From contig NZ_SUMC01000003.1 of NCBI RefSeq assembly GCF_005047355.1, positions 124,001 through 188,000 on the forward strand: a DNA stretch of 64,000 nucleotides, read 5' to 3'. The first letter of the stretch is position 1. Each line of letters begins with the position of its first letter. The notes under the pieces were generated by a model. The model made no database searches and was not told where the DNA came from. It was given only the letters and a program-made list of their open reading frames with translations. This stretch comes from Actinacidiphila oryziradicis (lineage in GTDB: Bacteria; Actinomycetota; Actinomycetes; Streptomycetales; Streptomycetaceae). The translations under genes and the position numbers were made by a program. This document shows, one piece after another, positions 41,772-59,833 of the stretch.

Positions 41772-43007
41772 CTACGTGTACGCGACCCGCAGCTCCTTGA
41801 CGCCGTTGATCCACGCGGATCGCAGCCGCCGGGGTTCGCCGGTGAGCCGGATGTCGGGGATGACGTCGGCGATGGCGTTGAAGATGAGGTTGATCTCCAT
41901 CCGGGCGAGGTTGGCGCCCAGGCAGAAGTGCGGGCCGCCGCCGCCGAAGCCGAGGTGGGGGTTGGGGTCGCGGGTGATGTCGAAGAGCTCGGGGTGGTCG
42001 AAGACCTCGGGGTCGTTGTTGGCGGAGGAGTAGAAGATGCCGACCCGGTCACCCTTCTTGATCTTGGCGCCGCCGAGCTCGGTGTCGCTGGTGGCGGTGC
42101 GCTGGAAGGAGGAGATGGGGGTGGCCCAGCGGACGATTTCGTCGGCGGTGGTGGCGGGGCGGTGGGCTTTGAAGAGGTCCCATTGCTCGGGCTGGGTGAG
42201 GAAGGCGTGCATGCCGTGGGTGATGGCGTTGCGGGTGGTCTCGTTGCCGGCGACGGCCAGTACGAGGACGAAGAAGCCGAATTCGTCCGTCGTTAAGTTG
42301 CCTTCGTCGGAGGCGGCGACAAGCTTGGTGACGATGTCGTGGGCGGGGCAGGTCTTGCGGTCGACGGCCATGTTCATGGCGTAGGCGATGAGTTCCATGG
42401 CGGACTCGGTGCCGACTTCCTCGGTGATGGCCAGCTCGGGGTCGTCGTAGGCGACCATCTTGTTGGACCAGTCGAAGATCTTGGAGCGGTCGTCCTGGGG
42501 GATGCCGATGAGTTCGGCGATCGCCTGCAACGGCAGTTCGGAGGCGATCTCGGTGACGAAGTTGCCCTCGCTGCGGGCGGCGGCGCCGGAGACGATGCGC
42601 TGGGCGCGCGATCGGAGGGCGTCCTCCAGCGCGCGGATGGCGCGGGGGGTGAAGCCGCGCTGGACGATCTGGCGGAGCCGGGTGTGCTCGGGCGGGTCCA
42701 TGTTGAGGATGATCAGCTGCTGGGCGTTGATCTGGTCGCGGGTCATGTGCTCGTTGAAGCGGATGATCGCGGTGTTGGTGTGGGACGAGAAGACCTCGGG
42801 GGCCGTGGAGACGGCCTTGACGTCGGAGTACCGGGTGACGACCCAGTACCCGTCGTCGTCGAAGCCGGCGATGCCGTGCGGCTGGGCGTTCCACCAGACG
42901 GGGGCGGTCCGGCGGAGCTGGGCGAGTTCCGGGAGCGGTACCCGCTGCTGGTAGATGTCCGGGTCGGTGAAGTCGAAGCCCTCGGGGAGGGCAGGGCAGC
43001 TGGGCAT
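41772..43007 (-). CDS. CYP125-like cytochrome P450 (steroid C26/C27 hydroxylase)
   Basis: 411 residues. P450 motifs: I-helix LAVAGNETTRNAITHGMHAF, E-x-x-R in DEIVRWATP, heme-Cys loop GFGGGGPHFCLGANLARM. The family-specific opening LPEGFDFTDPDIYQQRVPL and IILNMDPPEHTRLRQIVQRG follow mycobacterial CYP125 closely. CYP125 oxidises the terminal methyl of the cholesterol side chain. ATG 43007 has GGAG 6 nt upstream; ATG 43019 is possible. It is divergent from the FadA5-like thiolase, as in Mycobacterium tuberculosis, with a KstR-like site between. Redox partner is probably the ferredoxin at 47238. Confidence 0.92.
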   Translation of the reverse strand: MPSCPALPEGFDFTDPDIYQQRVPLPELAQLRRTAPVWWNAQPHGIAGFDDDGYWVVTRYSDVKAVSTAPEVFSSHTNTAIIRFNEHMTRDQINAQQLIILNMDPPEHTRLRQIVQRGFTPRAIRALEDALRSRAQRIVSGAAARSEGNFVTEIASELPLQAIAELIGIPQDDRSKIFDWSNKMVAYDDPELAITEEVGTESAMELIAYAMNMAVDRKTCPAHDIVTKLVAASDEGNLTTDEFGFFVLVLAVAGNETTRNAITHGMHAFLTQPEQWDLFKAHRPATTADEIVRWATPISSFQRTATSDTELGGAKIKKGDRVGIFYSSANNDPEVFDHPELFDITRDPNPHLGFGGGGPHFCLGANLARMEINLIFNAIADVIPDIRLTGEPRRLRSAWINGVKELRVAYT

Positions 43008-43133
43008 CGACGGCTCCATCTCTGACGGTCCATCAGATCTGTTGCGGAAGGTAGTTCCAGGACCTACAAGTGGCAAGAGGTATGCGTGCACGACTCTTGC
43101 GCCCCCGTACCGCGGGTAAGCAGACTGCAGGTG

Positions 43134-43155
43134 GAACTAGAACGTGTACTAGTTC
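43134..43155. promoter_or_regulatory. KstR-like operator between P450 and thiolase genes
   Basis: GAACTAG-AACGTGTA-CTAGTTC: 7-bp arms; the core TAGAACGTGTACTA (43138-43151) fits the KstR pattern TnnAACnnGTTnnA except for one base (GTA). It lies between divergent genes and could control both. Confidence 0.75.
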
Positions 43156-43201
43156 TGCCGTGGGCGCCGGGACGCCCCGCGGCCTACGAGAGGACGAGGT
43201 C

Positions 43202-57732: not shown

Positions 57733-57773
57733 GTACGAATACGAGTCAGTACGGATGAGAAGGGGAGCCCGCC

Positions 57774-58850
57774 ATGCGCGCAGCCGTACAGCACCAGATT
57801 GGCCAGGACAAACTCGAAGTGTTCGACGATGTCGAGGCGGTGGGCTTCGGCCCCGGCAAGGTGCGCGTCCGCATCCGTGCCACCGGGCTCTGCCACTCCG
57901 ACCTGTCCGCGATGAGCGGCGTCCTGCCGCAGCCCGCGCCCTTCATCCCCGGGCACGAGGGCGCCGGTGAGATCGCCGAGGTCGGCGAGGGCGTCGACGG
58001 CCTCGCGGTCGGCGACCGGGTACTCGTCTGCTGGCTGCCCGCCTGCGGGGCCTGTCCCGCCTGCAAGCGCGGCCAGTCGCACCTGTGCCTCGCCGGGTTC
58101 CTCAACGCCGGCACCGCCAACTACCGCCGGCCGGGCGGGGACATCTTCGGCTTCGCCGGCACCGGCACCTTCGCCGAGGAAGTCGTCCTCTCCGCGCCCT
58201 GCGCCGTCCCGATCCCGGATGACATTCCGTTCGAGATCGCCGCTCTCATCGGCTGCGGCGTCACCACCGGGATCGGTGCCGCGCTCAACACCGCCAAGGT
58301 CGAGGCCGGTTCGTCGGTCGCCGTCATCGGCTGCGGCGGCGTCGGCATCAGCGCCATCCAGGGCGCACGGGCGGCCGGCGCCGCCGAGATCGTCGCCGTC
58401 GACCCGGTGCAGTCGCGGCGCGATGCCGCCCTGCGACTCGGGGCGACCGATGCCGTCGCACCGGAGGAGCTCGCCGATGTGAAGGGGCGGCTCACCGGCG
58501 GCGAGGGCTTCGACTACGTCTTCGAGGTCGTCGGGAGGTCCAGCACCGCCCGTACGGCGTACGAAGCCACCCGGCGCGGCGGCACGCTGTGCGTCGTCGG
58601 GGCGGGCGCGATGGACGACAACCTCCAGATCAGCATGTTCGAGCTGTTCTTCGACGAGAAGCGGATCCTGCCTTCCCTGTACGGGGGAGGGGATGTGCTC
58701 AGGTCCTACGACCGGGTCATCCGGCTCTGGCGCGCCGGGCGGATCGACCTGGAAGGGCTGATCACACACCGGGTGCGGCTGGAGGAGATCAACGACGCGG
58801 TCGACCAGATGCGGAGCGGCGAGGCGCTGCGCACCTGCGTGACCGTCTGA
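57774..58850 (+). CDS. Zn-dependent alcohol dehydrogenase (class III-like)
   Basis: 358 residues. Catalytic zinc ligands in GLCHSDLSAMSG and FIPGHEGAGEIAEVGEG; structural zinc cysteines in CWLPACGACPACKRGQSHLC; cofactor loop SSVAVIGCGGVGISAIQGAR. LTGGEGFDYVFEVVGRSS is also typical. Second gene of the KstR-fronted operon. It probably oxidises the side-chain alcohol between P450 and aldehyde dehydrogenase, though the latter are in the other block. Confidence 0.93.
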   Translation: MRAAVQHQIGQDKLEVFDDVEAVGFGPGKVRVRIRATGLCHSDLSAMSGVLPQPAPFIPGHEGAGEIAEVGEGVDGLAVGDRVLVCWLPACGACPACKRGQSHLCLAGFLNAGTANYRRPGGDIFGFAGTGTFAEEVVLSAPCAVPIPDDIPFEIAALIGCGVTTGIGAALNTAKVEAGSSVAVIGCGGVGISAIQGARAAGAAEIVAVDPVQSRRDAALRLGATDAVAPEELADVKGRLTGGEGFDYVFEVVGRSSTARTAYEATRRGGTLCVVGAGAMDDNLQISMFELFFDEKRILPSLYGGGDVLRSYDRVIRLWRAGRIDLEGLITHRVRLEEINDAVDQMRSGEALRTCVTV

Positions 58851-58876
58851 GGACGCGGCCCGGGAGGGAAGGGGAC

Positions 58877-59833
58877 ATGGGGATGGACGTGCTGGCGGGC
58901 CGGACGGCCATCGTCACCGGCGCCGGAAGGGGCCTGGGGCGGGCGGAGGCACTGGAGCTGGCCCGGCTGGGAGCGGCGGTCGTGGTCAACGACTACGGGC
59001 AGCCGGGCAGGGACGGCTCGGGGGAGGCGTCCGCGACTCCGGCGGAAGAGGTGGCCGCGGAGATCGTGGCGGCCGGCGGCCGGGCCGTGGCACACCACGG
59101 AGACGTGGCTGACTTCAAGCAGGCCCAGGAGCTGGCCGGGCTCGCCCTGGAGACGTTCGGATCGCTGGACATCCTGGTCAACAACGCGGGCATCCTCCGG
59201 GACCGCATGGTCTTCTCGATGACGGAAGAGGAGTGGGACGCGGTGATCCGCGTCCATCTGAAAGGCCACTTCAATATGACCCGCTTCGCCGCCGCGCACT
59301 GGCGCGACCGCGCCAAGGCGGACAACGGCCGTCCGGTGTTCGGGCGGATCGTCAACACCTCGTCCGAGGCGTTCCTCGCCGGTTCGGCGGGGCAGCCCAA
59401 CTACGCCGCCGCCAAGGGCGGCATAGTTGGGCTCACGACCTCCACGGCAGCGGCGCTGGCCAAGTACGGGGTGCGGTCCAACGTGATCTGCCCCCGCGCC
59501 CGGACCCGTATGACGGACGACGTGTTCGGGCCCGCCGGCCCCGCCGTGGACCGGAGTCCGGATCCGCTCGCGCCGGAGCATGTGGCGCCGCTCGTCGGCT
59601 ATCTGGCGTCGCCCGCCGCCGAGCGGGTCAACGGCCAGGTCTTCGTGGTGCACGGCGGGATGGTCGCATTGGTGGACCGGCCACGGGTGACCGCGAAGTT
59701 CGACACGGCCAAGGACGCCTTCACGTACGGCGAGCTGGACGAACTGCTCACCGGCTACTTCGCGGGCCGCGATCCGGCGGAGAGTTTCGCGGCGACGGAG
59801 GTGCTCGGCCTCAAGCGGAGCCGGCCGTACTGA
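58877..59833 (+). CDS. SDR of the 17-beta-HSD type 4 (MFE-2 dehydrogenase) kind
   Basis: 318 residues. Cofactor loop TAIVTGAGRGLGRAEALELA, VVNDYGQPGRDGSGEAS (the insert typical of MFE-2), NNAGILRDRMVFSMTEEEWD, and catalytic tract NTSSEAFLAGSAGQPNYAAAKGG (Ser/Tyr/Lys). ATG 58877 has GGGAAGGGGAC upstream. Together with the hydratase it supplies the middle steps of beta-oxidation. End of the operon; no operator found within it. Confidence 0.93.
   Translation: MGMDVLAGRTAIVTGAGRGLGRAEALELARLGAAVVVNDYGQPGRDGSGEASATPAEEVAAEIVAAGGRAVAHHGDVADFKQAQELAGLALETFGSLDILVNNAGILRDRMVFSMTEEEWDAVIRVHLKGHFNMTRFAAAHWRDRAKADNGRPVFGRIVNTSSEAFLAGSAGQPNYAAAKGGIVGLTTSTAAALAKYGVRSNVICPRARTRMTDDVFGPAGPAVDRSPDPLAPEHVAPLVGYLASPAAERVNGQVFVVHGGMVALVDRPRVTAKFDTAKDAFTYGELDELLTGYFAGRDPAESFAATEVLGLKRSRPY

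Follow-up and report, generated by a model that had tools for sequence, protein, structure and literature searches.

In mycobacteria and rhodococci, KstR is a TetR repressor whose operators are of the TNNAACGTGTTNNA type, following the consensus in PMC8228715. According to PMC8228715 and PMC6678751, mycobacterial KstR is released by a sterol coenzyme A (CoA) thioester, and the review PMC6678751 adds that it may bind other ligands. The closest described system for a second group of genes is the methylmannose polysaccharide (MMP) cluster. ManT, MmpH and the gene cluster meT1-mmpH-pmeT3-manT are the subject of the 2023 mycobacterial MMP study PMC9883506, and 7QSG is a structure from its work on Mycobacterium hassiacum ManT. 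MMP has been proposed to sequester acyl-CoA, to which the same study adds a link to cold growth; it also reports an acetylated MMP in Streptomyces griseus, with a ManT that is 53% identical. KstR is mentioned 0 times in the main text of that paper, and a full-text search of mostly non-subscription literature, without bioRxiv preprints, returned no paper combining KstR and methylmannose. Here we analyse 64,000 nucleotides of Actinacidiphila oryziradicis (NZ_SUMC01000003.1, positions 124,001 to 188,000; "the window"), which lie on contig C223 of an 11.5 Mb genome in 389 contigs and carry a KstR-like repressor gene, MMP genes and sterol side-chain genes. We consider it likely, with a probability of about 0.7, that the KstR-like repressor governs one regulon joining MMP synthesis and acyl-CoA side-chain catabolism. 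The initial annotation had described a KstR-type sterol side-chain regulon. That part stands, while its restriction to side chains only is not supported, as the MMP operon appears from the comparisons below to be the most conserved KstR target across the family.

The three products of the operon 48437-51635, which is divergent from kstR, are a GT4 glycosyltransferase, a methyltransferase and a protein lacking any above-cut-off Pfam match. The product of manT (48437..49786, + strand), a mannosyltransferase homolog, has 7qsg as best PDB match with 446.9 bits, the next reaching 92. For the MMP hydrolase homolog mmpH (50532..51635, +), 7qsj MmpH is the sole PDB match (410 bits), and residues Asp47, Trp49, Asp50, Glu262 and Glu265 are conserved in the alignment. 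Between the two lies pmeT3 (49780..50535, +), a putative MMP 3-O-methyltransferase gene assigned as an S-adenosylmethionine methyltransferase and by gene order. Its product shows weak PDB matches only; the order manT-pmeT3-mmpH is repeated in six loci of family f4 (L134-L139), where pmeT3 is 57-61% identical to its counterpart. The MMP 1-O-methyltransferase homolog meT1 (55615..56274, − strand) has a sole PDB match at 248 bits, 6g7d/6g80/6h40, which we take to be MeT1 structures. From the matches of ManT, MmpH and MeT1 together with the order and similarity of pmeT3, we conclude that the window contains an MMP gene set. It resembles the mycobacterial cluster of PMC9883506, where pMeT3 activity is putative as well, in three genes by nearest solved structure, in pmeT3 by order and similarity, and in the contiguity of manT-pmeT3-mmpH. 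Unlike the mycobacterial cluster, it adjoins a KstR-like repressor gene and is apparently under its control. The NCBIfam name mycothiol_MshA was rejected for manT, scoring 97 bits, far under the cut-off of 462, and the view that these genes form a glycosyltransferase cluster of their own, outside the regulon, was dropped after the matches to 7qsg, 7qsj and 6g7d.

The adjoining kstR (47629..48252, −) encodes a KstR-like TetR repressor, as initially annotated. KstR NF033703 is its top NCBIfam match at 187.5 bits, under the curated cut-off of 280, and in the PDB it is near-equally close to 3bjb (136 bits) and KstR (133 bits). A KstR-type operator with 2 mismatches occupies 48368..48383 in the kstR-manT divergent promoter region. 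This site, at 48369, had been placed in front of kstR, which is correct; the divergent operon on its other side had gone unmentioned. A putative -10 box of the manT promoter, TAGATT at 48381..48386 (+), overlaps the operator, and most related loci have a TAGATT or TACATT box in manT direction on the operator edge facing manT. Repressor bound there would cover part of a conserved -10-like box and so keep polymerase out.

This arrangement was compared across streptomycetes in the best 80 of at least 554 relatives of the window KstR, almost all of them labelled as Streptomyces or a neighbouring genus; among the matches listed, the closest named relatives are streptomycetes. manT adjoins kstR in 80/80 loci and pmeT3 in 72, and each of the 80 kstR-manT intervals contains an operator, 12 of them two or more. 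We counted as a site any position with up to 3 mismatches to the 16-mer CTAGAACnnGTTCTAG within 300 bp 5' of a gene. Such sites precede manT in 80/80 and kstR in 77/80 loci, the aldehyde dehydrogenase (ALDH) gene in 53/64 and the metallo-β-lactamase (MBL)-fold hydrolase gene in 46/56. At the operon-internal controls, they are found for MeT3 in 1/72, MmpH in 0/72 and the ferredoxin in 0/66. None of 200 permuted half-sites reaches the count at manT, kstR, MBL or MeT1, and one reaches the ALDH count, with means of 0.6-1.7 over these five genes; for f1, 1/200 reached the count at manT. The strongest permuted control attains 76/80 at manT, 73/80 at kstR and 45 vs 46 at MBL, and probably spells the left half of the site itself, CTGAAAC. 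In the motif-anchored profile (67 of 80 loci), AACTTGTTCTA forms an invariant core and the ATTA after it hardly varies. The operator averages 1.84 bits of information, a value raised by construction through the anchoring on the motif; the eight bases after it average 1.30, the sequence upstream 0.67 and that beyond the eight bases 0.99.

In the host family, the operator can be set against presence and absence of its repressor. Among 150 family genomes, manT occurs in 149, the lone miss being a 76% complete assembly. A KstR match (E ≤ 1e-25) is found in 141, one of them, G379 (76% complete), being weak (5e-27), and CYP125 (E ≤ 1e-120) in 65. All 65 also have KstR, 76 of the 141 KstR-positive genomes show no CYP125 match at this cut-off, and the nine KstR-negative genomes have manT throughout and CYP125 in none. 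The operator was scored at up to 3 mismatches and 450 bp from manT in 68 loci: the own genome, 27 family members of a class-wide sample of 296 genomes, and 40 selected loci (6 further KstR-negative genomes and 34 KstR-positive ones across genera). This covers 59 of the 141 KstR-positive genomes, and KstR was found in 59/59 of their manT stretches. An operator near manT is present in 35/35 loci with KstR and CYP125, in 15/24 with KstR and no CYP125, and in 1/9 without KstR, overall 50/59 vs 1/9. Seven of the nine KstR-positive misses belong to genus g127, and 7/7 (L271-L277) carry the variant TGAAACnTGATCTAC 5' of manT, which occurs in 0/3 KstR-negative loci of that genus, hinting that repressor and operator perhaps changed together. 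The other two misses have 4 mismatches at 106-110 bp. Remnants persist at the usual 87-88 bp in the KstR-negative genomes G197 (4 mismatches) and G233 (5), and the sole KstR-negative locus with an operator (3 mismatches) is G348, a fragmented assembly. Where the repressor is missing, the operator is thus mostly gone or decayed; loci with the repressor and no CYP125 retain it or the variant.

These counts bear directly on the earlier reading of a sterol side-chain regulon and nothing beyond. It has in its favour that the CYP125, FadA5, ChsE4-type and hydratase genes all come with operators, as described below. Speaking against it, most of the streptomycete loci retain operators at manT, ALDH and MBL, 15 of 24 KstR-positive, CYP125-negative genomes have one at manT and seven further ones have the g127 variant; we regard it as very unlikely.

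Outside the family, manT occurs in 137 of the 296 genomes of the class-wide sample, and its surroundings were taken for 106 of the 109 non-family genomes that have it. In family f17, the operator precedes manT in 9/27 and meT1 in 7/14 loci, the latter count leaving out L142, L185 and L186, whose estimated gene start lies beyond the fetched stretch. The strongest permuted control for f17 meT1 reaches 6/17, compared in the uncorrected set with 10/17 observed. Family f26 has the operator 5' of meT1 in 7/21 loci. With a limit of 35 kb, set after the distances had been seen, a KstR match lies close to manT in 24/25 f17 and 9/10 f26 genomes having both; within 10 kb the numbers are 19 and 9. The nine manT-adjacent KstR-type proteins of f26 score 203-277 bits on NF033703. 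Several f17 loci also have relatives of CYP125, alcohol dehydrogenase (ADH), MBL or FadA5 near MMP genes. Proximity and operators in both families suggest that the link between KstR and manT is old or recurrent.

Several observations weigh against a common regulon. No operator precedes manT in f26 (0/25), even where kstR adjoins manT, nor in f4 (0/18), f18 (0/22) or f14 (0/7), and none precedes meT1 in f4 (0/16), f18 (0/22) or f14 (0/6). A KstR match within 35 kb of manT is found in 0/17 f4, 0/9 f18 and 0/6 f14 genomes, where the genes lie on separate contigs and their distance is unmeasured in 22 of 32 genomes (all six of f14). As f4 has canonical KstR plus manT, yet no operator at manT or meT1, and the link is missing from f4, f18 and f14 despite both parts, it is not universal. 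Within the streptomycete set, the site stands 5' of MeT1 in 7/45 loci only, and the window meT1 has no operator within 400 bp, the nearest being at ~520 bp. The 80 loci are moreover the nearest KstR matches and non-random. Related genomes are in general non-independent, which the Fisher value calculated for the operator counts leaves out of account. Allowing 4 mismatches weakens the contrast in the host family to 53/59 vs 2/9. Finally, the NF033703 cut-off is reached by 0/150 family genomes; with the window protein also under it, ligand and DNA specificity could differ from KstR.

The f26 loci, where kstR adjoins manT in 9/10 genomes and the site preceding manT is missing, would also fit an operator that only autoregulates kstR, with manT as a conserved bystander. 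KstR autoregulation is described for mycobacteria in PMC3068626, and the 77/80 streptomycete loci with a site within 300 bp of kstR are in line with it. The spacing argues otherwise: over the 80 loci the gap from operator to manT varies less (median 89, sd 23 bp) than the gap from operator to kstR (median 200, sd 108 bp), and more than one operator is present in 12 loci. In f17, operators stand at manT or meT1 while kstR is often kilobases off. We therefore hold simple autoregulation to be improbable and retain a regulon that includes the MMP operon.

The remaining operators of the window connect the repressor to side-chain genes. The pattern TnnAACnnGTTnnA, allowing one mismatch, has 8 matches in the window vs a shuffle mean of 2.53, and 0/100 shuffles reach 8. 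Exact matches are found at 48369 and 56796 and one-mismatch matches at 43138 and 45704; the remaining four are scattered. To the longer CTAGAACnnGTTCTAG, the four sites have 1 (43138), 3 (45704), 2 (48369) and 0 (56796) mismatches, so that all four sites initially annotated are present, the last, described there as a perfect dyad, without mismatch. One further window position, 10069, is within 3 mismatches. The sterol genes are preceded by a TNNAACnnGTTNNA-type operator, as judged by presence of the motif.

The operator CTAGAACGTGTACTAG at 43137..43152 (1 mismatch) lies between a CYP125-type cytochrome P450 gene (41772..43019, −) and a FadA5-type steroid 3-ketoacyl-CoA thiolase gene (43202..44371, +). 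The top PDB matches of the P450, by homology a sterol C26/27 oxidase, are CYP125 or steroid C26-monooxygenase entries, the best at 527.5 bits. The thiolase passes NF005889 'steroid 3-ketoacyl-CoA thiolase' with 690.7 vs 515 bits and has FadA5 as nearest PDB relative (508 bits). Both assignments and the divergence of the pair around the 43138 site agree with the initial annotation. CYP125 and FadA5 genes are divergent in mycobacteria as well. Among described systems, a close one is the Streptomyces P450 CYP125A13 of Streptomyces peucetius, which hydroxylates cholesterol, at C27, as reported in PMC9728343. Near the 80 loci, four of six 'CYP125' matches were rejected as other P450s (24-25% identity).

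The operator at 45703..45718 (3 mismatches to the 16-mer) separates the gene of an MBL-fold hydrolase of the Strvi_7410 family (44653..45690, −; NF053820 604.5 bits, cut-off 525) from that of the aldehyde dehydrogenase (45779..47233, +; PF00171 506 bits), which is followed by a small Fe-S ferredoxin gene (47238..47471, +; PF13370 33.9 bits, cut-off 24.5), all where originally placed. The perfect operator at 56795..56810 stands 5' of the hydratase operon. Its first gene encodes an enoyl-CoA hydratase (56899..57732, +; PF01575, PF22622), now specified as MaoC/MFE-2 type (PDB MFE-2 178 bits), followed by a zinc alcohol dehydrogenase (57774..58850, +; PF08240, PF00107) and a short-chain dehydrogenase/reductase (SDR) of the PRK07792 family (58877..59833, +; NF005862 479 bits, cut-off 414). 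The location of this operon stands as annotated; the start of the SDR gene is corrected to ~58877 from the upstream GTG of the open reading frame. Between mmpH and meT1, at 52401-53624, we observe a gene for an F420-dependent luciferase-like monooxygenase-type (LLM) oxidoreductase of the Rv3520c family (411 bits, cut-off 335). Rv3520c is located in the mycobacterial cholesterol region.

A genome scan finds TnnAACnnGTTnnA at 39 places and the reversed pattern at 17. For the 16-mer with as many as 3 mismatches the numbers are 245 and, for its reversed pattern, 902, making it uninformative genome-wide at this threshold; we followed places with 0-1 mismatch together with the window sites. The scan proposed initially thereby yields one further likely operator. 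Outside the window, the single one-mismatch place for CTAGAACnnGTTCTAG is C190:71020, 50 bp 5' of a ChsE4-type acyl-CoA dehydrogenase gene, and is likely a fifth operator. The best solved relative of this dehydrogenase is 4x28 (457.6 bits), listed as acyl-CoA dehydrogenase, which we take to be the ChsE4-ChsE5 enzyme. No ChsE5-like partner was recognised directly 3' of it; in L100:9021-11386 (C190:71020 onward), an MpaB/Lcp-type oxygenase gene follows the ChsE4-type gene. On C339, two TTGAACnnGTTCAA-like dyads lie 46 bp apart (L293:5089 and 5135) and may serve a different regulator as its operator.

Mce-type genes occur on contigs C381, C328 and C364, with 18 MlaD matches in the own genome. A KstR-controlled Mce4 system was rejected: no operator with up to 3 mismatches is found in 19 kb (C381) and 16 kb (C328) around the Mce genes, so that the check for Mce4 proposed in the initial annotation found none under KstR control there. 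C328 and C364 have six Mce-type (MlaD) matches each with identical scores, which together with 6.25% contamination suggests that the assembly may hold duplicated contigs.

The ring-degrading genes that the initial annotation had not seen in the window are also unmatched across the own genome by two markers: KshA_C has no match, the same model being strong in other actinobacteria, and the HsaC query, a G177-cluster protein named HsaC from its sequence and neighbours, has none at E ≤ 1e-20. In the class-wide sample, many f4 genomes and several from f17 and f26 give strong KshA_C matches. Of its 28 family genomes, one has a strong match (G177, 306 bits), three have weaker ones (63-93 bits) and two are borderline (E 5e-4 and 7e-4). 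An HsaC-like relative is present in 19/150 family genomes, two at ≥48% identity. This rarity agrees with the survey PMC4810484, which reports the steroid pathway as absent from 55/57 Streptomyces genomes. Three f17 genomes (G121, G249, G275) each have a pair of KstR-like matches, of which one is no more than 31 kb from manT and the other ~18 kb or less from a KshA match.

The rarity of ring genes bears on whether the ligand of the streptomycete protein is a fatty or terpenoid acyl-CoA rather than a sterol one, in a regulon of general lipid homeostasis to which CYP125 and FadA5 are optional. The 76 KstR-positive family genomes without CYP125, 24 of them examined and all with KstR beside manT, would fit this view, as would the other ligands considered for mycobacterial KstR in PMC6678751. 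Cholesterol hydroxylation by S. peucetius CYP125A13 (PMC9728343) and the KstR match in every one of the 65 CYP125-positive family genomes point towards sterols. We see a non-sterol ligand as a serious possibility, short of an even chance.

Compared with the KstR regulon of mycobacteria and rhodococci, the regulon proposed here shares the TetR repressor, the operator type, the divergent CYP125/FadA5 pair and the ChsE4-type acyl-CoA dehydrogenase. It differs in a regulator below the family cut-off, in unmatched KshA and HsaC and in the lack of an operator at the Mce genes examined; the MMP operon and the MBL/ALDH-ferredoxin genes are, in turn, conserved as targets here. The regulon would comprise manT-pmeT3-mmpH, kstR itself, the ALDH-ferredoxin and MBL hydrolase genes and, where present, CYP125/fadA5, the hydratase-ADH-SDR genes and the ChsE4-type acyl-CoA dehydrogenase. 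A side-chain acyl-CoA thioester would release the repressor, and a branched side chain, from a sterol or similar compound, would be shortened with the rings left closed. MMP would be raised alongside and could hold bulky acyl-CoA. Taking release of KstR by a sterol CoA thioester together with acyl-CoA sequestration by MMP, the side-chain pathway and MMP would be made together when bulky acyl-CoA accumulates. Several kinds of sequence comparison support the regulatory link; binding, repression, the promoter, the inducer and the role of MMP are inferred.

A wider proposal can be made tentatively, and we rate it as rather unlikely in its full form: setting the level of MMP may be the main function of the KstR-type repressor in streptomycetes and in two or more further actinobacterial families. 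MMP would act as an intracellular carrier or buffer of bulky (sterol or isoprenoid) acyl-CoA, with the sterol genes as optional members of the regulon. If this were true, MMP would gain a regulator and a natural cargo. Placing the MMP genes under a repressor whose mycobacterial relative responds to a sterol CoA thioester makes a testable proposal on both cargo and timing. It would also explain why a KstR-type regulator is found in 141/150 genomes of the family, in streptomycetes unable to open sterol rings.

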